Part shown: positions 18,168-64,000 of the stretch, piece after piece
Layout of the letters: every line of letters begins with the position of its first letter
Position numbering within the stretch: the first letter of the stretch is position 1
DNA from: Acholoe squamosa
Lineage: Eukaryota; Annelida; Polychaeta; Phyllodocida; Polynoidae
DNA: 64,000 nucleotides
Direction: 5' to 3'
NCBI GenBank assembly: GCA_949317995.1
Contig: OX439036.1
Location: forward strand, 21,612,854-21,676,853
Notes under the pieces: generated by a model
What the model saw: only the letters and a program-made list of their open reading frames with translations
Databases searched by the model: none
Told to the model about the DNA's origin: nothing
Program-made: the position numbers and the translations under genes

Positions 18168-18539
18168 TGATCTTGATTCTGTGAATATGAGCATGAAGCA
18201 AATCTACAAGCTATGTAATGTGCGTGCAAATACTGCTTTTTCTGCAAATCCCAACTTGAGAGGTTATGTAATTTATATCTCTATCCATATATAGGCCCAA
18301 TTCTGTTTTTATGAACCATCAAACAACCTATCATGATAATAATTGAGTCAAACCTATTATGTTCACGTGACGCACATTGGTCCTTTCCTTAGGAAGTTTT
18401 ATTTGCTATCCCAGCAAATTGTCGTTATCTGTCGCCATGATTGGTCATCAATGGTGACTCCTTTCTGAGTGATAACTCACTGCGTCATCTTTCGCCACTG
18501 TGTGTCAGTCTCACATGGCATGGCAATTTATCACAACAG

Positions 18540-19030
18540 TCACCAACATGATCTCACTCACTGCGTGAGTATGTGCCACCCCATGTCATCCCTCACAAAG
18601 CATGGTGACTTATCACCACCATCGCCAACATGGATCTAACTCACTGCGTGAGTATGTGCCACTGCCTGTCAACTCTCACTCAGAATGGCGGCTTATCACA
18701 AGCATCGCCAACATGGATCTGACTCACTGTGTGATTATGTACCACTCCCATGCCACTGGCATCAACTCTCACACATAATGGCGACTTATCACTACCATTG
18801 CCAACATTGGTCTCACTCAATGCGTGAACTTGTGTCACTCCATGTCAATGCTCTCTAAGGATTGCATCATCTGTCACTCACTCTCACTCAGAATGGCAAC
18901 TTATCACCACCATTGCCAGCCTTTGTCTCACTCAATGCGTGAATTTGTGTCACTCCAAGTCAATGCTCTCTGAGGATTGCATCATCTGTCACTCACTCTC
19001 ACTCACAGTGGCAACTTATCACCACCATTG
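18540..19030 (+). repeat. Internal tandem array 1, 83-105 bp units
   Basis: Five units, each with ACTCACTGCGTGAGTATG-like and GGCGACTTATCACCACCAT-like segments. Spacing between ACTGCGTG cores is about 83, 83, 103 and 105 bp. The last two units share an extra segment, CTCTSAGGATTGCATCATC. The unit resembles the element's left sub-terminal TCACTGCGTCATC...CGCCACTG. Confidence 0.8.
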
Positions 19031-19403
19031 CCAAAGGTGTTGAGACAGCACCACTGTTCCACATGTAGCCTATCTAGGAAGTGTGGGCATGAAGTATAAG
19101 TCCCATATGTATCAAATGTGCTTTGTTTCACACTGATTTCCATGTAATACTTCAGAGTTGAATCAAACAAGATTATATAGAGAGAATATCAATTGAATTT
19201 AGATAGAGGTATCTCTAAAATGAAAGCAACTATCCATAAACACCTTTTCTCTGGTTACAGGAAAAATACATAGGGAAATATCAACATGAACACCTTGTCT
19301 GTGGTTAGAGGGAAGATACATATGGCAATACCTTCTCTGGCAAAACATACTTTGATCTGGCAGATGTGAGGCTGCATGATGACCAATGTCGATGATCATG
19401 AGC

Positions 19404-20040
19404 TTTTCATCTAACAAGGTGAGTGATCACCAGCATCGCCATCACTGGTGAGTCTGAGTGATCACCACTCTCGCCATCCATGGTGAACCTGCGCTATGAC
19501 ATGGTGCGTGTTTCATCTAGCGAGGTGAGTGATCAACCGCCTTGCCATCCCTGGTGAGTGTGAGTCATCACGATCCTCGCCAACCGTGGTGAACATGCGC
19601 TATGGCATGGTGTGCGTTTCATCTAGCGAGGTGAGTGATCACTCGTGTCGCCATCCCTGGTGAGTGTGGGTGATCAAGATCCTCACCATCTGTGGTGAAC
19701 CTGTGCTATCACGAGGTACACGTTTTATCTAGCGAGGTGACTGATCACAATCCTTGCCATCCGTGGTGAATGTGCATTATGACGTGGTGTGCGTCTCATC
19801 TAGCGAAGTGAGTGATCACTCATGTCGCCATCCCTGGTGAGGATGAGTGATCACGATCCTCGCCATCCCTGGTGAACATGTGCTATGACGAGGTGCGTGT
19901 TTCATCTAGCGAGGTGAGTGATCACCCGCGTCGCCATCCCTGGTGAGTCTGAGTGATCACCATCCTCGCCATCTGAGGTGAGGCCATGTGATCACCACCA
20001 TTGCTATTCCTGGTGATCTTGTGCTATAGCGACGTCGTGT
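19404..20040 (+). repeat. Internal tandem array 2, ~106 bp units
   Basis: Six to seven units begin TTTCATCTAGCGAGGTGAG. Most are 106-107 bp, with one of about 71 and one of about 140. Each has two GTGATCAC-type palindromes and two TCGCCATCCCTGGTGA segments. The unit opening resembles the element's right sub-terminal TTCCATCTAGCGACATG. Confidence 0.85.
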
Positions 20041-20105
20041 TCCATCTAGCGACATGTGTGAGCCACTTCACACAGGTTGACGAGGAGTCACAACAATTTG
20101 CTGGG

Positions 20106-23264: not shown

Positions 23265-23623
23265 TAGGAGATGTGAAGGGAACATAGATAAGGAACTTCA
23301 CACACTCGCTTTCCTTCCCTCTGCCTAGGTATACCTATTTATGTTTGCCTCAGGTGCCAATAGTTCACAAACAGGGTATGGTTGATAATGATGATAGCTC
23401 AGCCCAAGGGTCCTACCTAGCTGTGTGCAGTGTAGTAGGAGGCTGCAGTCTTGTACATCTGTCACTGTAGAAACCTGTAGTATAATACTACCAATTTACC
23501 ACCCACCAAGTGCCCAGCACCAGGGGCAGACATAACTCTATACCTCCACTCCCTCTCTGCTACTGACATGTCCCTGGTCCTAGCATTATATTATGAAGAA
23601 TTGGTATTTCTCTACACCACCCA
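23264..23623. other. No gene recognised
   Basis: Unique sequence between the AT tract and the next transposon. Confidence 0.5.
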
Positions 23624-24660
23624 GGAGCTTAATTCAAAACATCCTGGGATCACAACCCCATCGATCTTATAAAAACAGTGTTTAGGGATTAAACACCAGT
23701 GTTTAGAAGTTAAACACTTGGTTAAACACTTATTTGTCCCACTTTTCTAAACGCTTCTTAAGTGTTAAACGCGTTCAATTTTAAACATGTTTAACTAGGA
23801 GGTGTTTAACCAAGTGTTTAAATGCTAAACACTTAAACACTTCAGTGTTTAGGTGTTTGAGAATAAGTGTTTAAAAGCTAAACACCTAAACACTTCAAGT
23901 GTTTAGATGTTTAGATATTGGTGTTGAGAAAATTTGGTGTGTATCTTTAAACACCTTTTTTGCAGTGTATAGTGTAGGCACATATCATAAGAGCTGGTCT
24001 ACCCTATCTAATGCAGGGGTTGCATGCCTGTCCAGAATAGCTAGTCCTGGGATCACTTCACTATTCCACTTCCACCACTAAGATCACTGCGATCTTAGTG
24101 AAAGAAATGCATAGTGGTTTCACCTGAGTACAAGTGCACTTACAGGTAACACTCCAGATCGAAAGAGGGAACAGCCTGCTGATTACATAAACAGGGGAGG
24201 GAGGATGTTTACTGAGACCTTGAGGGCCCTTAGGCCTACTCATGCGTTAAGGGCACTCTAAGGTAATTCTTCCTTCTCAAGTTTTGAAGTGAAGTCCTAC
24301 CCCACTCCCTTTGGTATCCTCTTACTGCAAGCCAGACTATGTCTTTGCATTAAAGTAACTTATTTACAGATGGAATCTAATATATTTCTTAGCCCATATG
24401 GGGATGGGGAACGATGGTATAAGCACTCTTGTGAAGAAGAGTGACTCCACAGCTATTCCTTTATTTTGGGACTCTTACCCCTGTGCCTAGTCAGTTATTC
24501 TTGGAATAGTGTAGGAGGGCTGAGGCTAAGATCGATGCGATCTTAGTGCTGACTAGGATATGTGAACCCAGTCAACTCTTAAGATCGCTTAATAGGATAA
24601 GGCTGATTTATTCCTAAGATTGCTGGGGTTGTGATCCCAGGATGTTTTGAATTAAGCTCC
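23624..24660 (+). mobile_element. GGAGCTTAATTC element, copy 1, with nested insertion
   Basis: Terminal inverted repeats of about 45 bp start GGAGCTTAATTCAAAACA, continue through TCCTGGGATCACAACCCC, and are mirrored at 24615-24660. Copy 2 (63073-63817) shares the ends and most of the body in the same orientation. Copy 1 is longer because of the insertion at 23670-23969 and a different central segment (about 24275-24390). Internal palindromes contain GATCTTAGTG. No ORF of note. Confidence 0.85.
23670..23969. mobile_element. CACTGCAAAAA-family MITE nested in copy 1
   Basis: A 300 bp TGTTTA-rich element whose right end is ACACCTTTTTTGCAGTGTA, the reverse complement of the family's TACACTGCAAAAA start. 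The left end is worn (TAAAAACAGTG). It is flanked by TA on both sides (23668-23669 and 23970-23971). The unoccupied site reads CGATCTTAGTGTAGG at 63111-63125. A longer relative lies at 44153-45039. Confidence 0.85.
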
Positions 24661-25024
24661 TGGGAATGATATTGATTAGTAGTCCCTTTTTCTCCCCAAA
24701 ATGGCAAAAGTATGATAGCAAATTATTATATGAAAATCAATAAATATATTGAATTGTTTAGCAATAGTTGACCAGTCCCTATAGGTATAGAACTGAACCA
24801 ATTAAAACCTCTTTGCATATGATTTATAAGTATATGCTAGACGAGTAGATCTATATCAGTCTTTTGAATAGATCGCAGATTAAATGGAATAAGTCTGTAA
24901 ATTCATAATTTGGACTTCATGATAAAAGTTTTTACCTCACTGAATTGTGACAAAAAAAGATAGAATACATGCAGCCTGCCATGGGGTAAGAAATCCATTA
25001 GTATTTCCGGTTACATAGCTTCAG
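24661..25024. other. No gene recognised
   Basis: AT-rich spacer immediately upstream of the candidate ORF. Confidence 0.5.
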
Positions 25025-27329: not shown

Positions 27330-28510
27330 TTCCCTATGATGCATTGATGCAATTTAACCCTTAATGGATGGCATGATGCATTGATACACAGTCAACCCTT
27401 TATGAATGGCATGATGCATTGATTCACTTTAAGCCTTTATAGATAGCATGATGCATTGATGCACTTTTACCCTTTATTGGTGGCATGATGGATTGATACA
27501 CAGTTAACCCTTTATGAATGGCATGATGCATTGATTCACTTTAAGCCTTTATTGATGGCATGATGGATCGATACACAGTTAACCCTTTATGAATGGCATG
27601 ATGCATTGATGCACTTTAACCTTTTATGAAAGGCATGATGCATTCATGTACTTTAACCCTTTATGAAAGGCATGATGCATTGACAAACTTTAACCCGTTA
27701 AGAATGGCATGATGCAGTGATGCACTTTTACCCTTTATTGGTGGCATGATGGATTGATGCACAGTTAACCCTTTATGAATGGCATGATGCATTGATGCAC
27801 ATTTAACCCTTTATGAATAGCATGATGCATTGATGCACATTTAACCCTTTATGAATGGCATGATGCATTGATGCACATTTAACCCTTTATGAATGGCATG
27901 ATGCATTGATTCACTTTAAGCCTTTATGAATGGCATGTAGCATTGATGCACAGTTAACCCTTTATGGATAGCATGATGCATTGATGCACAGTTAACCCTT
28001 TATGGATAGCATGATGCATTGATGCAGTTAACCCTTTAAGGATAGCATGATGCATTGATGCACAGTTAACCCTTTATGAATGGCATTATGCATTGATGCA
28101 CAGTTAACCCTTTATGGATGTTACAAAGCATTGATGCACATTTAACCCTTCATGGATAACATGATGCATCGGTGCACTTTAACCCTTTATGAATGGCATG
28201 ATGCATTGATGCACTTTAACCCTTCATGGATAACCTGATGCATTGATGCACTTAACCCTTTATGGGTGGCATGATGCATTGATACACAGTTAACCCTTTA
28301 TGAATGGCATGATGCATTGATGCACATTTAACCCTTCATGGATAACCTGATGCATTGATGCACTTAACCCTTTATGGTTGGCATGATGCATTGATACACA
28401 GTTAACCCCTTAGGGATAGCATGATGCATTGATGCACAGTCAACCCTTTATTGATAGATAAGGCATTGATGTGCAGTTAACCCTTTTATGGATGGCATGA
28501 TGCTTTGTCA
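27330..28510 (+). repeat. Satellite array 1, 37-38 bp units (~31 copies)
   Basis: The unit is about AACCCTTTATGAATGGCATG followed by ATGCATTGATGCACAGTT; units vary by a few substitutions. Monomer drift (CACTTT versus CACAGTT) and mixed GATAGC/GAATGGC variants occur along the array. Related wording (GCATGATGC, AACCCTTT) also occurs in the inverted-repeat elements at 32.3 and 52.4 kb, which may be the source. It joins array 2 directly. Confidence 0.95.
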
Positions 28511-30365
28511 GCAAATATGTAATAATGCACTATCTGTCAGCAATTAGTCAATTTATGTTAGTAATTACTCACTTTTTGTCAGTAATTAGTCCAAATATGT
28601 CAGTAATAATGCACTATTTGTCAGCAATTAGTCAATTTATGTTAGTAATAACTCACTTTTTGTCAGTAATTACTCACTTTTTGTCAGTAATTAGTCCAAA
28701 TATGTCAGTAATAATGCACTATTTGTCAGCAATTAGTCAATATATGTTAGGTATTACTCACTATTTGTCAGTAGTTGTAAAAATATATCAGTAATAATGC
28801 ACTATTTGTCAGCAATTAGTCAATACATGTTAGTAATTGCTCATTATTGGTCAGCAGTTCATCAACATATGTCAGTAATCACTCACTATTTGTCAATATC
28901 TGATTGAATATTGAAAATTGAATTGAAAATAGCATTGAAAATTGCATTAAAAACTCGGGTCTTTTAGGTCTTAGACCTAACCTGCTCCATCTTATAACAA
29001 CACTTAGTCCACGTATGTCAGTAATTACTCACAATTTATCAGATATTAGTCAATATATGTCAGTAATTACTCGCCATTTATTAGGAATTAGTCAATATAT
29101 GTTAGTAATTACTCACCATTTGTTAGCAATTAGTCGAAATATGTCAGTATTTACTCACAATTTGTCAGCAATCAGTCAATATATGTCAGTACTTAGTCAT
29201 TTTATATCAGCAATTACCAATACATGTCAGTATTTACTCACAATCTGTCAGCAATTAGTCAATATATAACCAAGGAATAGCCATTGATTCAATTGTGCAT
29301 CCTCCCTTTCTCACAATTTGTCAGATATTAGTCAAAATATGTCAGTGTCTATGGACTATTTGTCAGCAATTAGTTAATATATGTTAGTAATTGTTCACTA
29401 TTTGTCATCAATTTGTCAATATATGTCAGTAATTACTCACTATTCATCAGCAATTAATCAATATATGTCAGTATTTACTCACTATTTGTCAGCACTAGTA
29501 ATTGTTCACTATTTGTCAGCAATTCGTCAATATATATCAGTATAATTTTACTCATAATTTGTCAGCAATTAATCAATATATGTCAGTACTAAGTCACTCT
29601 ATATCAGCAATTGTCAACACATGTCAGTATTTACTCACAATCTGTCAGCATTTAGTCAATATATAACAGAGAAATAGCCATTGATTCAATTGTGCATCCT
29701 GCCGACTGGTTTGTGTCAAAATATGTCAGTATATATGGACTATTTGTCAGCAATTAGTTAGTATAATTATGTTAGTAATTATTCACTATTTGTCAGCAAT
29801 TAGTCAATACATGGTAGTAGTTACTTCCATTTTATCAGCATTTAGTCAATATATGTTAGTAACTGCTCACTATTTGTCAGCAATTAGTCTATATGTCAGT
29901 AATTGCTCACTATTTGTCAGCAATCATTCAATATATATTAGTAATTACTCACTTTTTGTCAGCAATTAGTCGATATATGTCAGTAATTGCTCATAACTTA
30001 TCAGAAATTAGTCAATATATGTCAGTAATTACTCACTCTTTTTCAGCAATTAGTCAATATGTCAGTAATTGTTCACTATTTATCAGAAATAGTCAATATA
30101 TGTCAGTAATTACTCACTCTTTGTCAGCAATTATTCAGGATATGTCAGTACTTAGTCACTAGATATCTGAAATTAGTCAACACATGTCAGTATTTACATA
30201 CAATTTATCAGCAATTAGTCAATAAATGTCAGTATTTTACTCCATTTTTGTCAGCATTCATTCAATATATGCCAGTACCTCCTCCTATGTCGGTAATAAT
30301 GCAGTATTTGTGAGAAACTATTCAATGTATGTCAGTAATTACTCACTATTTGTCAGCAATTAGTT
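28511..30365 (+). repeat. Satellite array 2, 42 bp dimer of 21 bp monomers (~40 copies)
   Basis: Two alternating 21-mers, TGTCAGCAATTAGTCAATAT(A) and TGTCAGTAATTACTCACTAT(T), form a 42 bp unit. Non-repeat interruptions lie at about 28905-29005, 29276-29310 and 29673-29715. The last two share AATAGCCATTGATTCAATTG and sit 397 bp apart with matching variant monomers before them, which is evidence of a higher-order repeat. Because 42 is a multiple of three, long ORFs appear but have no protein meaning. Confidence 0.95.
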
Positions 30366-30970
30366 AAAGCATAGTTTAGCATAGCACATAGAACACAGTT
30401 GCCCATAGATCATTTTAGGGCAATGCCCAATCCTTAGACATTTTAAACTGTTAAAAAGATAGACTTAGATGATAGTTTCCGAAAGTACCATTAATTGTAT
30501 CCTCAAGTGCCAAAGTCCTCCTGTCAGACTCGAAATTGTTTTGCAATATGTGAACACCTAAAATGCTTAACAAACATTTCTGTCATCAACCAGGAATTCT
30601 TATGTTGTATGCCACAGTTTTGCAATAGAACCTCTTCGGGTGGCTAGCTTTAATTGATTCATGACAATGGCTCTTGTATAAAAGCCGTAACTTCAAAGGG
30701 GATTGAACCAGTAAAGAAGATTGATATCAAAACAATAGAGAAAATCGCAAGATGAGAAAACTAAGTTGAGATTTAACAGTGTTCTATGCATCACACAGAT
30801 CCAGACACCATAGATTCTGTGCCTTATTACATCGATTACCCAGTAACATGGATAACTAATTTCCAGCTCCCAACTGAGAGATTTATTATCTGTCAAGGCC
30901 CTGTTTTAGTTAGCCCTGTAATTAACAACCAGAAATTGACTGACATCTACCAGCATTCCCACAAAAACCT
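30366..30970. other. No gene recognised; spacer before promoter-like cluster
   Basis: Unique sequence. A 94-codon plus-strand ORF (30786-31070) runs into the promoter-like motifs and is not recognised. Confidence 0.45.
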
Positions 30971-55869: not shown

Positions 55870-56259
55870 AATTTTCCCAAGAATTACATCTGCTGTTCAA
55901 AAATTATTCATAAAACCTCCTGCTACGCTTGGCCTATTTCACAAAACCTCCTCCCAAACCTGACCCAATTCACAAAAACTCCTGCCAGAACTGACCTAAT
56001 TCATAAGACCTCCTGCTAGCCTCCCAACCATAGAATGTGGAAATAAACCTACAGTAGGAACAATAGGGTGCAGAGCCAGGTGGAGTATAACCTTCCAGAG
56101 AGTACTGAGAAAACTCGTTTCCTAGTAGTCTATTGACAAACGAATGTACGGCAACATGCATGAAAAACTTTGCGTTAACATTTTCTTTTTGGCAAGACCC
56201 TCCAGATAAACATAAAGGGGAAGGTAGACCCACAGAACCCAATAAGTAAATAAGATAAT
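55870..56259. other. Short degenerate tandem motif, no gene
   Basis: CACAAAACCTCCTGCYA-like phrases recur at about 55910, 55941, 55971 and 56000 (~30 bp period), a small decayed tandem repeat. The 90-codon minus ORF (55970-56242) is unrecognised. Confidence 0.55.
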
Positions 56260-56262
56260 GAA

Positions 56263-56390
56263 CAAGTAACCAATGGATAACTCATGACGAGTGGGGGTTA
56301 TCGACGGATAATAACACTCGGCCTACGGCCTCGTGTTATTATCGTCGATAACCCCCACGAGTCATGAGTTATCCATTGACTACTTATTTT
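56263..56390. repeat. Long terminal hairpin of copy A
   Basis: Arms of about 55 bp: AACCAATGGATAACTCATGACGAGTGGGGGTTATCGACG-type sequence (in parts) pairs with its reverse complement to 56387. The tip is ACTCGGCCTACGGCCTCGT. The arms are nearly fully complementary. Confidence 0.9.
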
Positions 56391-56673
56391 ATACCACGAA
56401 ACCAATAAATAATCAATATTATACCAATAAATTCAAGTTGAAAACAAAAATTATTCCCCCTCTCCGGGACTCGATGCCAGCCATTGTGTGTACACGATCG
56501 GTACATACACCTCCTCGCCCGGCAGCGGACAGCGGCAGCCCCGGTCTCGGCTAGGCTTGGCAGCGGCACATGGTGAAAGATTTCAATGCGTCTCGCTGTT
56601 ATGTTTGTGTATAATACACCTCCTCGCCCGGCAGCGGACAGCGACAGCGCACACGGCGAAAAAAGATGCACCC

Positions 56674-56741
56674 AGACCGGGACGCGATCCGCGGACCTCT
56701 GACGGCTGAGCGCAAAGCGCTAACCGCTAGACCACCGCGCC
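56674..56741 (-). tRNA. tRNA-like sequence 1 in copy A
   Basis: Minus-strand A box TGGTCTAGCGGTTAGCGC and a worn B box GGATCGCGTCC. Its partner in copy B (62140) keeps a better B box and a T run. Confidence 0.5.
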
Positions 56742-56869
56742 TTGTCCATTCACTGCGTCTCGCAGTTATGTTTGTGTAGAATACACCTCGTCGCCCAGCA
56801 GCGGACAGCGACAGCGCACACGGCTTTGTATCATATCGAGACGTAGTTTGAACCGAGCATTTCTCGTCA

Positions 56870-56942
56870 GTCCTTGTGGCGCAGTGCATAAGGAGTTGGA
56901 TTTCGGATGTGAGACTGCAGGTTCGATCCCTACCCTGGCCTG
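56870..56942 (+). tRNA. tRNA-like sequence 2 in copy A
   Basis: A-box region GTGGCGCAGTGCATAAGG and B box GGTTCGATCCC are separated as in a tRNA. The anticodon stem is worn, while the copy B partner (61933) folds better. Confidence 0.5.
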
Positions 56943-56993
56943 GAAAATTTCGTGGGTTTTAACATGTAACATATGACATGGGAGGACATGAGA

Positions 56994-57112
56994 GGCGTGC
57001 GGTTATCCTGGATAACCGCACGCCTTACATGGATAACCGCACGCCTTACATTGATAACCGCACGCCTTACATTGATAACCGCACGCCTTACATTGATAAC
57101 CGCACGCCTTCC
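56994..57112 (+). repeat. 14 bp-arm palindrome and 21 bp tandem array
   Basis: GGCGTGCGGTTATC-CTG-GATAACCGCACGCC is a perfect hairpin (56994-57024). Its right arm is then repeated as 21 bp units (GATAACCGCACGCCTTACAT) four to five times to 57112. ORFs here are artefacts of the 7-codon period. Confidence 0.95.
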
Positions 57113-57147
57113 AAAATTGATGTTACAGCCTATAGGGTGTGCAATAT

Positions 57148-57275
57148 CGACAGATATGTGTATGGGAATAGCCACCAAAAAGCACTGTGTAACCCAGAAA
57201 TCGTGGTATAACGACAGATATGTGTATGGGAATATCCACCAAAAAGCACTGTGTAACCCACAAATCGTGGTATAA
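57148..57275 (+). repeat. 64 bp tandem duplication
   Basis: Two near-identical units start CGACAGATATGTGTATGGGA at 57148 and 57212. Copy B carries only one. Confidence 0.95.
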
Positions 57276-58189
57276 TGAAGATGAATATTCTGTTAACTCA
57301 AGGTAGAGACAATGATTATATACTGACAGTGTAATACATGGAAATATGTCCAACTTGGAATTACATAAAGCAAAGGTTGACTAGAATAACGTGTCTCGGA
57401 TTAAGATGCTCGATGTATTCTGTCATTGCCTTGGGGTTGATTGAACGGCTTCTTGCATATAATGTCAGCCATTTAAACGCTTTAATGGCGGCTGTTTATT
57501 GGGAAATCATATTTTCACCCTACCCTCTGAGTCTAGTTTCAGCCTCTCTTATTCTTCTTTCCCGCTACTTTCCATTTTACCCTTATGTTTATAATACGAT
57601 GCAATAGATAATTCTAAAGATCCCCAATGGTGATATGAGGCTGAATGTAAATTAGGCGGAGCAGGAGTTCTATTTGTAAATGAGCTATTTTCATGCCGTC
57701 TGACCCGTTTATTAATATCTAACCTTTAGTTAGTGTCAAGTTGTGAAATCACTCAGACATTAAAGACACTGGGGATATTTCCAGAAATACATTTTGGATT
57801 AGAACACATAGTTTGACCTTCCTTTGGACGGCTATAAAGCTGGAATTGTGACGCAAGTAACCTTAACTTCAGAAAGGGGTTAAAATGTTCAGGAAGCCCA
57901 TTCCAAGGGTCAAAATATTAATTACAATGTCATCCTTCTAAACGACATTGTACCTGAGTAGCTATTCCAAATGTATACTGCCACTTACTGAAGCTTTTGC
58001 TAATATGTAAAAAGATCTTTCTATGTGAAAATGAGCCGTATTTTCTTTTAAACTTTGATTTCCACTTGTAAAATACGGTTTCTCCATGGTGATTAATAGT
58101 GTAAATGATCATATCCTTCAGATCAGAATAGCAGATAGGATATATCCTTCAAAACTAGGATCCTGTGATTAGTAATTCTACTTGCAGTT
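57276..58189. other. No gene recognised
   Basis: Unique sequence. An 89-codon ORF (57338-57607) has a hydrophobic tail but no recognisable family. Confidence 0.4.
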
Positions 58190-58400
58190 TATCAAAAGCC
58201 ATTATAAACAATGTCTTTGCATCTACACTTATGTGCTTATTTATTTCAATACCTTTGTATCCCCAGCCCTTATTTGAGACAGGCGCTTATTTAAATACTA
58301 GTTTTATTGCTTAAGATTATTTGCAATGCCCCTCTGTGCCCGGTGCTTATCTGAGACTCATGCTTATTTGAGACCCCAGCGCTTAAATTAGCCAATACGA
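58190..58400 (+). repeat. GCTTATTTGAGAC motif repeat
   Basis: Variants of GCTTATTTGAGAC occur at about 58267, 58286, 58341 and 58363, with a CAGCGCTTA tail. Probably part of a decayed DNA element; boundaries uncertain. Confidence 0.45.
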
Positions 58401-58635
58401 TAGATAATGTGATGATAATGCAATATAGCATAAATATTGAAGCCCATGGTTTCGGCTCGTGCAATATCCTCAATATCCAAACCATAATGCGTTTATACCA
58501 CCTTTTCCTCTATAATAACATTAATTACCTACCTGATATCCCCAGAATAAATACAGCAGAAGGCATTTTGTAAGTGCCAGCAATACTTCCCGTTTTGCTC
58601 TGCGCGAAGCCATTGTTTTTCCTCGGCAGCCCGAC

Positions 58636-59037
58636 TTTGCACTCAGTTTTCGTATTGAATCCAATCTTGTCATGTCAAGTTATTAAAATGTATGTATCCT
58701 TAGATAACCTAGATGATGATAGTAGGCCATTTTGGGCTCTAACCTTTGAAATATAGAAGGATTTCATGAATGTTCAAGCCTAAGCGAGTCACGGTCTGCC
58801 ATTCGCATCGTCTTCCTCCTTCGTCCTGTGAACTTCATCTGGGCCACTGACACATTTCGTTGGACGAGGAGGCAGACATGAATGGCGGACTGTGGAAAAA
58901 TCATTGGATTCTTCTTTATTTTGAGTGTTAGAGACCAAAATGGCCTACTTACAGTATCTATGGATCATAAATTTCCTTGTTGGGCATAGGATATTATCCA
59001 TTGACATGATTGGATTCAATACGAACAGTGGGTGCAA
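58636..59037. mobile_element. Inverted-repeat element with CGTATTGAATCCAATC ends
   Basis: TTTGCACTCAGTTTTCGTATTGAATCCAATC-type left arm (58636-58676; read in parts) pairs with GATTGGATTCAATACGAACAGTGGGTGCAAA (59008-59037; read in parts). The interior includes ATCATTGGATTCTTCTTTAT, which resembles the arms of the element at 984-1218. Confidence 0.65.
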
Positions 59038-60685
59038 ACATAGGACTACCGCTACAGGTTAGAATTTATTTACTTTTGCATTGGACTTCATCACCGTTCA
59101 GTGTGGCGTAAAGGCTAAGGCTTTTGCCCAGCTCCACTGCCACTCTGCCAGCACTTTCCCAAAATATTCTAAGTCCAACTTGACCTTGAAAAAGTATATC
59201 CAAAAATTAAAAGAAAAGCACATGTTTGTATATGCTCTCATAAGGCACTGGTAGAGGAAAGCATTACAGTAAGGGAGGTGGCAGAATAGTGGTATAATAA
59301 TAAGATAAGGCATGGATTGAGGCAATAAAAGGCAAAGGACATGAAAGTAACCCATTTAATTTCACACATGATGTTATTAGTAGGCAACATAGGTTGTGCA
59401 ATAATCACACAATTGGGTCCTTTATATAGCTAATGGACCCCTCCCCATACTTTCCATATCGTAGCCATATTTGATGGACAGCTCAATATAGTAAACACAA
59501 TAATTTGATACAACAACATCAATGTTCTATCAAGATGCAAAATTAATTTTAGTGATTATAGTGAAACCAACAGAGTCCTATTCAGATATGGAAACTGGAC
59601 AGACAAAATAAGGGCAATTCACAGACATCTCCAGTTCATGCAGTTTAGTGGCCAGGTAAATTGAAGTTAAAAGGTCGATACCCTGGCCCCAATAGCACTT
59701 AAGCCATGTATAGCATGTTGATAGACATTAAGTGGACCATGACTAAGGTTTAAAATGCTGTTAACATTACTGTTTCATGCTGCCACATCATTGCCGTGTA
59801 AGGGGGCCAATTACCGACCCCCCAGACCCCCACAACCAAACCCCATTCACCTACTGATGGCCTAGTGGTCATTGTAGTGATCAAATGAGGTGGAAGGAAT
59901 CATAGCTCACGAACAAGTCAACATGCATGAAATATATTTTACTTCCAATGGTAAATTGGTAAATGCCCATACATGTCATTGACGAGACTATAAATGTCTA
60001 CTTGTTTAGGACTTTTTTTTTTTTTTTTAGAAATAGCTATATTTATTTGACCTACCCTACTGAGAAGCGATGACTTAATTCAAGCAGTCTCCTTCTCCCC
60101 TTTATGGAATCCTCTAAATTCTACAGTCTATATAATATCTTCACTGTTCACAATAGACATTGAATAACATTAGCTATAAATCATATCTCATTCCATTACT
60201 CTACTGTGCTTGCAGGTGAGAGACTTTTACATCGGATGTAAGGTTGGTGTGGCGCTTACGTAAGTATATATAGGCAGCTATAGGGTTCAATTGTCAACTA
60301 GTGGAATACCTGGCTCTATTTACTGCAGAAATACCAGTGCCAGGTACCAAATCAGGTAATGGCAGCCCCGATAGAGAAATGAGGAATTATAAACAAAGAA
60401 CAGGCCTTCTAGGGTAGCTCAGAGCAGACGTATACACACTCAACCTCTTGCCAATATGATTGGTCACGTATCCAGTGCTGGTTTAGAGGGGTTGGTAACT
60501 TTTAATTTCCTTTATCTTTATCAAGATGCCCGCTGCTAGACACTTTACTTGAAATTTGCTGGTTGATAAGCAACCAAAACGCGATACCACAAGAATTCCT
60601 GGTGTTAATTTGGTAGGGGGAGGTGAAGCATCTATCATGGCCCAGAATAGTCGTTGCTATTAAGCATTCTGGATAATGTAAGCTA
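59038..60685. other. No gene recognised
   Basis: Unique AT-rich sequence with a T18-type run at about 60007-60028. The minus ORF at 59098-59355 is unrecognised. Confidence 0.5.
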
Positions 60686-60698
60686 GTTGCTAGGTAAC
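60686..60698. promoter_or_regulatory. RFX X-box-like motif
   Basis: GTTGCTAGGTAAC, one base off a perfect palindrome. Additional TTGCTAG and CTAGCAACC half-sites lie nearby (60530-60820), so it may be part of a local repeat. Confidence 0.3.
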
Positions 60699-61132
60699 CA
60701 GCATCTCTAGCAACCAAGTAACAACACCACCAAAATCTTTAGTATTAGGGGAGTTAATCAAAATGCCTGTTGCTAGGCCGAAATTTGGTTTTGGTTGAAA
60801 TCTGGTTGCTACGCGACATGGTTATTAGGCATAGTTTGCCACGGAGGATTACTGTGGATTTTAGTACTTGAGACCTCAAAGAAATGCATTGTGAATAGAA
60901 GCCTTTTGTGGCAATATGTTTGGGTTGAAATATACTCTGCCTGAAATACCAAACATGTCTACAGTTTGGTTCATAAAGAGTATCAAAAACTCAACCGTCT
61001 CTCACTTTTAATGTGGTTAAACTGTTTGTGTCTGGTCCTGGTCAGTGTCTACACAACAGGGGTGTGCCTGACTATCACCCCTACCACTGACCAACAGAGT
61101 CCAACTACACACGCCATACGGCCATCCATAAT

Positions 61133-61133
<1 letters not shown>
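60699..61133. other. No gene recognised
   Basis: Repeated TTGCTA(G/C) half-site phrases, otherwise unique. Confidence 0.45.

Positions 61134-61226
<93 letters not shown>
61134..61226. repeat. Self-complementary compound microsatellite (CA)n(TA)n(TG)n
   Basis: About 5 CA, 26 TA and 16 TG units in a row, so the CA and TG ends can pair over the AT core. ORFs on both strands across it are artefacts. Confidence 0.97.
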
Positions 61227-61227
<1 letters not shown>

Positions 61228-61713
61228 TTGTGTATACGGACCTCACCTTGGTGGTTTGCTGTAAAAAAGAGAAAGGAAGCTCAGGCTTATCCATAAACAC
61301 AGATGGCTAGCTTATTGCACCAACCCTTTCCAAATTATTTATCATTCCTATTAATTTAACCCATGTTTATAAAATCACAACAGTGTTCTTCCTTTTTGTA
61401 AACACTCATAATGCGTTAAATTGATGATTGCCAGACATATAGATGAGAGCACTAGGTCTACAGAGAACCACTTTGCCACACAGTGTACCAGTGTAGGCAA
61501 TATCAACCTCATGAAATGTCTATGAAATATCCATGAGTCACTGTGCTAATTACTTAGTACTAGGTGACTTATTATTGGGGCATAAGAAGGTATTTGCGTG
61601 ATGGAAGTGCAATTAGGTTGTGTTCTTAAGTGACATTTCATTATCGTGCATTTAGTGACTCAGTACAATGCAATCCTCACTGATGTGTAGGTTAATCATC
61701 AGATGCTTAGTGT
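61227..61713. other. No gene recognised
   Basis: Unique sequence. Confidence 0.5.
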
Positions 61714-61932
61714 ACGTTATACCACGATTTCTGGGTTGCACAGTGCTTTTTGCTGGATATTCCCATGCACATACATGTCGGTATTGCACACCCTGTAGGA
61801 TGTAACATCAATTTTGTAAGGCATGCAGTTATCCATGGATAACCTGAACGCTGTGTGGTTACCCATGGATAACGCGCACACCTCTTATGTCCTTCCATGT
61901 CATATGTTACATGTTAAAACCCATGATAGTCT

Positions 61933-62005
61933 TGACCAGGGCAGGGCTCGAACCTGCAGCCTTAGATCCCTAGTCCAACTCCCTATGCAGTGCGCCACAG
62001 GGACT
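61933..62005 (-). tRNA. tRNA-like sequence 2 in copy B
   Basis: On the minus strand: GTGGCGCACTGCATAGGG, anticodon stem TTGGA/TCTAA with loop CTAGGGA (anticodon AGG if functional), T arm GCAGG/CCTGC with TTCGAGC. The acceptor stem does not pair, so it looks like a tRNA-derived promoter head rather than a tRNA gene. Confidence 0.55.
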
Positions 62006-62139
62006 GACGAGAAATCCCTGGTTCGAACCATGTCTGGATATGATACAAAGCCCGGGAAGGCGACGACTGCAGGCTGTCAGCTACCATAACGGGACGCACT
62101 CAAAAATATCCAAGTTGAGACGGCCACTGAAGGAGGAGA

Positions 62140-62221
62140 TGTGGTGGTCTAGCGGTTAGCGCATTGCGCTCAGCCGTCAAAAGTAGGCGGATCGAATCCC
62201 GGCCCGGACGCGTCTTTTTTT
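62140..62221 (+). tRNA. tRNA-like sequence 1 in copy B with Pol III-type terminator
   Basis: A box TGGTCTAGCGGTTAGCGC and B box GGATCGAATCC lie at tRNA-like spacing, followed by a T7 run at 62215-62221, a normal Pol III stop signal. The acceptor stem is unconvincing. Best read as an internal Pol III promoter unit. Confidence 0.55.
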
Positions 62222-62514
62222 CGCCGTGTGCGCTGTCGCTGTCCGCTGCTGGGCGACGAGGTGTATTATACACAAACATAATAGCGAGACGCATTCAAAG
62301 CTCTAGCTATCCATATTTTTTCGCCATGTGCCACTGCCAAGCCTAGCCCAGACGGGTGCTGTCACTGTCCGCTGCCGGGCGACGAGGTGTATGTACCTGT
62401 GTTCACACACTATGGCTGGCTTCGATCGAGTCCCGGGGAGGGGGAATAATTTTTGTTTTCAACTTGAATTAATTGGTATTCTATTGATTATTTATTGGTT
62501 TCGTGGTATAAAAT

Positions 62515-62640
62515 AAGTAGTCAATGGATAATTAATGACTTGTGTGTGTTAGCAAAGGCTAATTACACTCGGCCTACGGCCTCGTGTAATTGTCCTTCAC
62601 TAACACACACTCGTCATGAATTATCCATTGATTACTTGTT
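62515..62640. repeat. Long terminal hairpin of copy B
   Basis: Arms pair along about 55 bp with a few mismatches (AATGGATAATTAATGAC with GTCATGAATTATCCATT; GTGTGTTAGCAAAGG with CCTTCACTAACACAC). The tip is ACTCGGCCTACGGCCTCGT, identical on the plus strand to copy A's. Confidence 0.9.
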
Positions 62641-62642
62641 CA

Positions 62643-63072: not shown

Positions 63073-63817
63073 GGAGCTTAATTCAAAACATCCTGGGATC
63101 CCAACCCCAGCGATCTTAGTGTAGGCACATATCATAAGACCTGACTGGTCTACCCTATGTAATGCAGTGGTTGCAGGCCTGTCCAGAATAGCTAGTCCTG
63201 GGATCACTTCACTATTCCATTTCCACCACTAAGATCACTGTGATCTTAGTGAAAGAAATGCATAGTGGTTTCACCTGAGTATAAGAGCACTTACAGGGAA
63301 CACTCCTGATCGAAAGAGTGAATAGCCTGCTGCAGATATAAAGAGGGGAGGGAGGGCGTTTGCTGAGTGTCCTTGAGGGCTCTTAGGGCTACTCATGCGT
63401 TAAGTACATTGTAAGGTAATTCTTCCCTTCTCTCTCTTTGTCCTGGGGGAGGGCACAATGCTTCTAATAGGCAAGCATAAATGATACATTCATGGGAACA
63501 ACTCTTGAATACTGTACAGGGGTCAACTGCACCCTGTCCTCTTTTGTTAGCCCATATGGGGACGGGGAACGATGGTATAAGCACTCTTGTGAAGAAGAGT
63601 GACTCAACAGCTATTCCTTTATTTTGGGACTCTTACCCCTGTGCCTAGTCAGTTCTTCTTGGAATAGTGTAGGAGGGCTGAGGCTAAGATCGATGCGATC
63701 TTAGTGCTGGCTAGGATATGTGAGCCCAGTCAACTCTTAAGATCGCCTAATAGGATAAGGCTGATTTATTCCTAAGATCGCTGGGGTCGTGATCCCAGGA
63801 TGTTTGAATTAAGCTCC
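63073..63817 (+). mobile_element. GGAGCTTAATTC element, copy 2
   Basis: 745 bp with ends GGAGCTTAATTCAAAACA and TTGAATTAAGCTCC. Same body as 23624-24660 (AGGCACATATCATAAGA, CTAGTCCTGGGATCACTTC, CTACTCATGCGTTAAG, GGAACGATGGTATAAGCAC). It lacks the nested MITE, so it shows the unoccupied site at 63111-63125. The central ~140 bp (about 63425-63545) differs from copy 1. Confidence 0.85.
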
Positions 63818-64000
63818 TGAGTCATTGCTGTGTGATTGCCCAGTAAAGCTATCATGGCCACATCCACTCAACATGGGACTAGGCCTTATTGCAGGCAGCT
63901 TCACCATATACATGATACCCCTAGTCAGCCTCACATTATGGCCCTGCACTCACCCACATCCACATAAACATCCCTCAGGGGATATGGGCAATTTTAGGTT
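63818..64000. other. No gene recognised
   Basis: Unique sequence to the window end. Confidence 0.5.

Follow-up and report, generated by a model that had tools for sequence, protein, structure and literature searches.

In a 64,000-nucleotide window of the genome of the polychaete Acholoe squamosa, a segment of about 1 kb carrying a long hairpin and two tRNA-like units is found twice in opposite orientation (copies A and B), which raises the question of whether a mobile element is present and, if so, of what kind. The analysis suggested that the two copies very probably belong to a non-autonomous rolling-circle transposon family of the Helitron2/Helentron group (HINE-type), about 0.8-1.1 kb long and present in dispersed copies.

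Anatomy of the copies and of the family

Copy A matched the reverse complement of copy B at 76% over 1000 alignment columns (E = 0.0), and both carry the same parts in the same order (hairpin, GC boxes, a minus-strand tRNA-like unit, a plus-strand tRNA-like unit, tandem repeat and tail), as the original prediction had proposed. Homology breaks off at fixed bases and the flanks are unrelated. The predicted extents (56260-57275 and 61714-62642) were correct at the right-hand edges and were otherwise revised as in Table 1, the last part of the first, to 57275, lying outside copy A and repeating the 5' end of the element. The predicted orientation was backwards, as the hairpin is the 3' end of the element and the strands of A and B are thus exchanged. 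The inner junction of the stub, CTGTCG^, corresponds to the internal site where the L004 copy sits inside an older copy, and a nested insertion, after which the remainder was lost, probably produced the stub.

Table 1. Positions of the element copies and their parts in the window
Feature	Copy	Positions	Strand	Remarks
Complete element	A	56259-57211	minus	953 bp; 5' end 57211, 3' (hairpin) end 56259
Complete element	B	61717-62642	plus	926 bp
Stub, extra copy of 5' end	outside A	57212-57275	minus	64 bp
5' asymmetric terminal inverted repeat	A	57201-57211	minus	TTATACCACGA
5' asymmetric terminal inverted repeat	B	61717-61727	plus	
3' asymmetric terminal inverted repeat	A	56389-56399	minus	directly upstream of hairpin
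3' asymmetric terminal inverted repeat	B	62501-62511	plus	directly upstream of hairpin
3'-terminal hairpin	A	56259-56388	minus	ends 2 nt short of 3' terminus
3'-terminal hairpin	B	62512-62642	plus	
21-bp tandem repeat	A	57011-57110	minus	4.8 units
GC-rich central repeat boxes	A	56505-56824	minus	three boxes
GC-rich central repeat boxes	B	62223-62392	plus	two boxes
tRNA-like unit 1	A	56659-56744	minus	A box TGGTCTAGCGG, degenerate B box, T6 run behind
tRNA-like unit 1	B	62139-62221	plus	T7 run behind
tRNA-like unit 2	A	56866-56960	plus	B box GGTTCGATCCC, TTTT run about 26 nt past B box
tRNA-like unit 2	B	61926-62012	minus	

For comparison across the family, 27 of 31 copies were aligned, A and B included, while L003, L026, L028 and L030 were left out as truncated or rearranged. 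The consensus is 910 bp long, and copy B, with 85% identity to it, is the lowest in the aligned set. Conservation is highest in the 3' repeat together with the block preceding it (0.98) and in the first 100 bp at the 5' end (0.95), in comparison to 0.88-0.93 in the middle. No open frame of at least 130 codons was found in copy A or copy B. The 21-bp repeat differs in unit number among copies, and the GC boxes number from 1 to 5 per copy among 39 copies.

The 3' end of the family is formed by the hairpin plus TTGTTCA. The start TTATACCACGA was found in 28 of the 31 copies, and the end TTGTTCA in 26 of the 27 aligned ones, with the remaining copy off by one base. The original prediction had overlooked the inverted repeats TTATACCACGA / TCGTGGTATAA, which are 11 bp long and lie at 1-11 and 770-780 of the consensus, followed by the hairpin from 783 to 910; they are perfect in 24/27 and 23/27 aligned copies for the 5' and 3' repeat, respectively. 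A 5'-terminal hairpin is weak, with a CCA(C)/(G)TGG stem of 3-4 bp (-1.3 to -4.4 kcal/mol). The predicted long terminal hairpin was confirmed by folding with DNA parameters, which gave -53.5 kcal/mol (z = -14.5) for A and -44 kcal/mol (z = -14.2) for B, with none of 200 shuffles folding as well. It folds in all 27 aligned copies and reaches about 60 pairs, several times the length of hairpins described so far. Among the 19 copies with intact centre, the 8 of 27 hairpins whose centre was lost or altered being left out, 1027 of 1045 cells are paired and both sides have changed at 7 of 55 pairs; four of these seven track one split into two hairpin types, so that few events are represented.

Insertion sites and relation to known elements

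The original prediction had expected target duplications. None was seen at six empty sites, where neither duplication nor loss of target bases and no gap at the junction was observed (6/6), and this absence is itself an indication of a rolling-circle element. Insertion occurs at N^NTA: of 26 copies, 23 are followed by NTA at the 3' end, in comparison to a background of 8.4% (P = 4e-22; copy A, L001, was also dropped from this count, its 5' end being doubled), and so are all 12 copies obtained subsequently with a different query. The target NTA echoes the element's own first bases, TTA.

The locus had been put forward as an undescribed type of mobile element, a view that was not supported, as the terminal anatomy and the insertion free of target site duplication (TSD) match what is described for Helitron2, Helentron and HINE (PMC3627910, PMC4067079, PMC7492417, PMC5148889). 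The kind of element is known, and the family and its tRNA-derived cargo look new as far as searches of the literature go, in which no published element of such build was found. HINE / DINE-1 elements are described as non-autonomous Helentrons (PMC4067079), with Cg_HINE as an oyster example (PMC7492417). As far as these two accounts describe them, HINEs share with the present family an inverted repeat that lies at the 5' terminus and recurs ahead of the 3' palindrome, microsatellite or central tandem repeats (here the variable 21-bp and GC-box repeats), an unmodified target and the lack of a long open frame. They differ in a palindrome of 5-10 bp in comparison to up to about 60 bp here, in a TT target, shared with Helentrons, where N^NTA was found here, and in the two tRNA-derived Pol III cassettes, which are present here unlike in HINE / DINE-1 (PMC4067079, PMC7492417).

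Helitron2, in the features given for it, has likewise a 5' asymmetric terminal inverted repeat (ATIR) 0-2 bp from the end, a 5' T and a 3' ATIR directly upstream of the 3' hairpin, and compensatory changes keeping the terminal structures were reported; however, it is defined by a 5' hairpin, which is weak here, and the distance from the 3' ATIR to the 3' end is 130 bp here in comparison to 20-30 bp in Helitron2 (PMC3627910) and to 20-60 bp among described elements. The FoHeli elements of Fusarium, described as autonomous members of the Helitron2 group with ATIRs and a length of about 5-11 kb, may lack the hairpin at one end, and some of their subgroups resemble the present family in a target other than TT, which is TNAT^A in two of them, so that the differing target here is not disqualifying (PMC5148889). 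A canonical Helitron (Helitron1; 5'-TC, CTRR-3', A^T target) was rejected, since the ends are TTATACC ... TTGTTCA and the 5' flank is not fixed at A.

The genome encodes Helitron transposases, with 87 Helitron_like_N matches, 31 of which lie in frames of at least 2000 codons. In 53 loci taken from around Rep or Pif1-type helicase domains or from the region downstream of them, no element was seen that combines a transposase with the family ends; this set covers few upstream regions, contains several loci of the same gene, relies on estimated downstream positions (that of L045 from a wrong frame length) and includes at least one gene with likely exons further on. Near transposase genes the 3' end gave three 10-base matches in comparison to 0.7 expected, none of them behind a long hairpin. 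An 18-base consensus match in L053 and L074, which represent the same element (99.5% identity across 2338 bp), occurs without the family ends and was taken as chance.

A Helitron Rep is presumably the mover of the family. The Rep/helicase, made elsewhere in the genome, would nick just before the 5' TTATACCACGA (cleavage X^TTA) and a single strand would be peeled off 5' to 3', with the stop marked by the 3' inverted repeat and the long terminal hairpin; the strand would then be inserted at a nick made in the target at X^NTA, and as this target resembles the element's own 5' start, no target bases would be duplicated.

Another mobile element inserting without TSD, either a tyrosine-recombinase (Crypton-like) circle or an IS200/IS605-like single-strand element with hairpin ends, is improbable. 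It would agree with the large hairpin, with TSD-free insertion into a short motif and with the resemblance between the element start TTA and the target NTA in the fashion of an attachment site, but paired ATIRs with the 3' one directly before the hairpin, together with variable central repeats, are what is described for Helitron2/HINE, and Helitron genes are present in the genome. We consider very improbable a TIR transposon (MITE) with a TA target duplication, which the TA on both sides of the insertion and the inverted repeats could suggest: the repeats do not both lie at the termini, the junctions of the empty sites show no gap, and TA is preceded by T at the 5' side in nearly all copies, whereas at the 3' side any of the four bases can precede it, in agreement with the empty site in 4 of 6 comparisons.

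The tRNA-like units

The prediction of two divergent tRNA-like units stood in part. Units 1 and 2 both have A-box/B-box pairs about 43-44 nt apart and T-runs, beyond shuffled controls, and unit 1 aligns co-linearly with the host tRNAs Cys and Ala. The numbers of 1000 shuffles aligning as well with Cys and Ala, respectively, were 0 and 2 for unit 1 of copy A, 13 and 7 for copy B, and 1 and 11 for the consensus; the alignment of unit 2 with host tRNAs was weaker (158 and 4 for copy A, 40 and 79 for copy B, and 27 and 32 for the consensus). On the other hand, ARAGORN found no tRNA in the units (0/28 sequences) and the Rfam tRNA model gave no match to them, which rules out intact tRNA genes; at a relaxed threshold ARAGORN gave several shifting tRNA predictions per copy, which were taken as noise. 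Judged from their sequences, the units thus appear to be tRNA relics in which Pol III boxes and terminators were kept and tRNA folding was lost. Within the rolling-circle family they would be cargo amplified along with the element, and may still be transcribed.

A search with unit 1 listed 41 matches as best candidates, of which the 12 examined are complete copies of the element family, and one further match falls in its member L028. With these 13 of the 41 listed best matches all belonging to the family, unit 1 as a free-standing SINE was rejected, though a more diverged free SINE is conceivable. A tandem or composite SINE, meaning a retroposon that has two tRNA heads and relies on a LINE for copying through RNA, is extremely improbable: the Pol III boxes and T-runs of both units and the alignment of unit 1 with host tRNAs would agree with it, but the units are internal and divergent in comparison to the single 5' tRNA head of a tRNA-derived SINE, the element terminates in a hairpin whose arms covary and no A-rich or LINE-like tail was seen, the copies found via unit 1 alone have both ends complete (12/12), and target duplication is absent from every empty site.

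A link between tRNA genes and Helitrons was likewise proposed for an Arabidopsis tRNA-Cys cluster annotated as Helitron, which holds tRNA genes in comparison to the relics found here; according to the portion of that report dealing with the cluster, no reliable Helitron prediction overlapped the genes, whereas the present family has defined element ends, empty sites and dispersed copies (PMC10701932). It is conceivable, though unlikely, that the divergent Pol III cassettes are working parts which were captured, kept and spread, with their transcription aiding replication of the element through strand opening, R-loops or Pol III recruitment. If true, this would make the family a Helitron/SINE hybrid and a demonstrated capture of a non-coding RNA gene by a Helitron-type element.

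Dispersal and significance of the family

The genome-wide search bore out the predicted mobile element, whose copies are dispersed and end at fixed bases. In the 1.48-Gb genome an end-to-end match was obtained at 20 of 40 scored places, copy A included, and copies with identical ends lie on many contigs. L089 and L091, on different contigs, share 99.6% identity across 798 bp, suggesting recent movement. The alternative of one old inverted segmental duplication 4.4 kb apart, suggested by two oppositely oriented copies in one window, has a negligible probability, because homology stops at the element's ends between differing flanks, copies with the same ends are spread over many contigs, and copy B is only 76% like A in comparison to 84-87% for the nine best other copies of the genome search.

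The family is well defined, includes one or more very young copy pairs and makes the rules of Helitron2-type movement testable, among them the likeness of the target motif to the first bases of the element and a terminal hairpin of great length with covarying arms. It also means that tRNA-derived Pol III units would have travelled as cargo of a DNA-type element and not via RNA, where a tRNA-Helitron link was still treated as unproven in the relevant part of a 2023 paper (PMC10701932).

Dispersed copies with fixed ends

The original prediction had regarded copies A and B, two inverted segments of about 1 kb, as a candidate mobile element or a segmental duplication. Alignment of copy A with the reverse complement of copy B, the check it had proposed, gave a full-length match at 76% identity with abrupt ends at fixed positions, and a self-comparison of the window showed the flanks to be unrelated; the hairpins of both copies far exceed chance. 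When the genome (1.48 Gb in 63 contigs, 18 of these 54 to 127 Mb) was queried with copy A, 5354 first-look candidates were obtained, and the many dispersed, fixed-end copies anticipated for a mobile element were found: 20 of the 40 places scored, copy A included, matched without interruption from base 1 to base 951 or beyond, a lower bound since copy B, at 76% identity, is absent from the list.

The copies examined comprised 30 genome loci, one of them copy A, plus copy B (n = 31). Oriented with the hairpin rightward, 28 of 31 begin with TTATACCACGA, and 26 of the 27 aligned copies end in TTGTTCA, the other (L011) differing by one base. The majority consensus of these 27 is 910 bp long; identity of the copies to it ranges from 85% to 95% and is lowest for copy B. 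With unit 1 alone as query (units 1 and 2 are the two divergent tRNA-like units inside the element), both element ends were present in all 12 loci read among the 41 matches listed. Among 39 copies, the two closest (L089 on contig 18, L091 on contig 13) share 99.6% identity over 798 bp, which argues for recent movement of the family.

Two other kinds of repeat were observed in the window. One is a second dispersed pair with terminal inverted repeats of about 50 bp around GGAGCTTAATTCAAAACATCCTGGGATC, which looks like a MITE and at which no clear target duplication was seen; the others are satellite-like tandem arrays found by self-comparison.

Coordinates of the features, in the window or in the 910-bp consensus
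Feature	Reference	Position	Strand
Copy A	window	56259-57211	minus
Stub beside copy A (64 bp)	window	to 57275	
Copy B	window	61717-62642	plus
Second dispersed pair	window	23620-24664; 63073-63821	
Tandem arrays	window	27336-30375; 18473-20061	
Inverted copy of 11-bp repeat	consensus	770-780	
Unit 1 T-loop/B-box patch	consensus	~484-492	

Anatomy of the element and its tRNA-like units

From 5' to 3', the consensus carries the 11-bp repeat TTATACCACGA at base 1, a 21-bp tandem repeat which adjoins the 5' end and itself forms a hairpin, unit 2 (minus), GC-rich boxes flanking unit 1 (plus), an almost invariant 90-bp block, the inverted copy of the 11-bp repeat, and directly after it the terminal hairpin. 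Across 39 copies there are 1 to 5 GC boxes and 0 to 3 exact 21-bp motifs per copy, and no open frame of 130 codons was found in copy A or copy B. Conservation was 0.95 in the 5' 100 bp and 0.98 in the 3' repeat and the stretch preceding it; the hairpin scored 0.92 and the regions between 0.88 to 0.93. The ends were best conserved, as expected if transposition requires them.

The terminal hairpin folds in all 27 aligned copies, with the centre shortened or altered in 8. In the 19 with intact centre, 1027 of 1045 cells are paired and both sides have changed in 7 of 55 pairs, 4 of these 7 tracking a single split into two hairpin types, in a structure derived from the same sequences. The covariation therefore represents few events, but the stem is clearly maintained. 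The loop of copy A is oriented opposite to that of the 18 other copies with intact centre, as would be expected from palindrome flipping or templated repair.

In unit 1, the A box is perfect in 26 of 27 copies, the B box deviates at no more than one base in 13, and six or more Ts follow the unit in all 27. In unit 2, 25 copies show a perfect B box and 16 an A box with no more than one mismatch, and TTTT is present in all 27. When a single mismatch was tolerated per box, 20 of 27 copies carried one or more A-B-T cassettes versus 2 of 540 shuffles, and 9 of 27 carried at least two pairings versus 0 of 540, counts made over related copies and not over 27 independent cases. The alignment of unit 1 of copy A with the window's tRNA-Cys beat 1000 of 1000 shuffles and that with a host tRNA-Ala 998 of 1000; the likeness of unit 2 to tRNA is less clear, 4 to 158 of 1000 shuffles being equally good. 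The predicted tRNA-like character therefore stands for the boxes and T-runs, which go beyond shuffles, and does not extend to tRNA genes, a reading rejected for both units since neither ARAGORN nor Rfam recognises them. By eye, unit 1 may resemble tRNA-Glu and unit 2 tRNA-Arg. The T-loop/B-box patch of unit 1 is a variation hot spot amid conserved sequence in L001 to L030, its variants including GGTTCAAATCC, GGATCGATTCC and GGATCGCGTCC among others.

Separately, near-identical tRNA-Ala(TGC) genes were observed in the genome among the best 63 matches scored of 97,417 first-look candidates; ARAGORN called 19 Ala and 1 Val in the 20 read (L096 to L115). Several occur in doublets 458 to 459 bp apart on contigs 1, 2, 5, 7, 9 and 11, which together with the near-identity suggests an amplified tRNA-Ala repeat.

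Insertion sites and candidate Helitron transposases

At six empty sites, the joined flanks of copies match uninterrupted sequence with zero gap at the junction, two of the six being weaker (the 5' side of L005 matches over 18 bases only, and the final pre-junction bases of L016 differ). The gapless junctions indicate neither target duplication nor target loss, and the target duplications originally expected are thus absent there. The empty site of L007 is a stretch recurring element-free beside L028, L021 is inserted in its own tandem repeat, and the other four of the six checked insertions (L004, L005, L014 and L016) each lie inside an older family copy. Two of these four share the same spot in the hairpin.

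Of 26 copies, 23 have NTA directly after the 3' end, against a background of 8.4% (P = 4e-22), as do all 12 of a second set (P = 1e-13), statistics in which insertion sites within older family copies are not fully independent. The element's own first bases are TTA, comparable to the target NTA. In canonical Helitrons, the element's first T is likewise matched by the host T that follows the insertion; a Rep protein that cut X^NTA at the element's own 5' end as well as in the target would account for the likeness. The stub outside copy A consists of the element's first 64 bases and ends CTGTCG^, the same position where L004 sits within an older copy. Copy A may have inserted into an older copy, with recombination between the two bodies leaving the stub.

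Helitron_like_N (PF14214) gave 87 genome matches, and open frames of at least 2000 codons hold 31 of these. L031 and L032, two copies that lie on different contigs, share 99.97% identity over 3594 bp, which argues for recent movement of autonomous Helitrons, and L039 to L042 are 99.3% to 99.9% identical; long transposase frames in near-identical copies of this kind point to autonomous Helitrons that were probably active recently. DUF6570 was present in all three Helitron proteins scanned, and a replication-initiator family match lay just under the cut-off in two. The element's ends were absent from 53 loci, 32 around Rep/Pif1-type helicase domains and 21 4-kb stretches downstream, a set in which few gene-upstream regions are covered, several loci are the same gene, downstream loci were positioned by estimated frame lengths (wrong frame for L045) and some gene stretches continue further.

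Relation to known elements

Helitron2 (PMC3627910) and HINEs (PMC4067079, PMC7492417) are alike to this family in their terminal repeats, in the 3' hairpin and central repeats, and in TSD-free insertion, and target motifs differ within the Helitron2 group (PMC5148889). The family is unusual in the length of its hairpin, its N^NTA target and its pair of Pol III cassettes, and is therefore best read as a variant within a known kind of element. Degenerate tRNA-derived units are here found within a mobile family of Helitron2/HINE anatomy.
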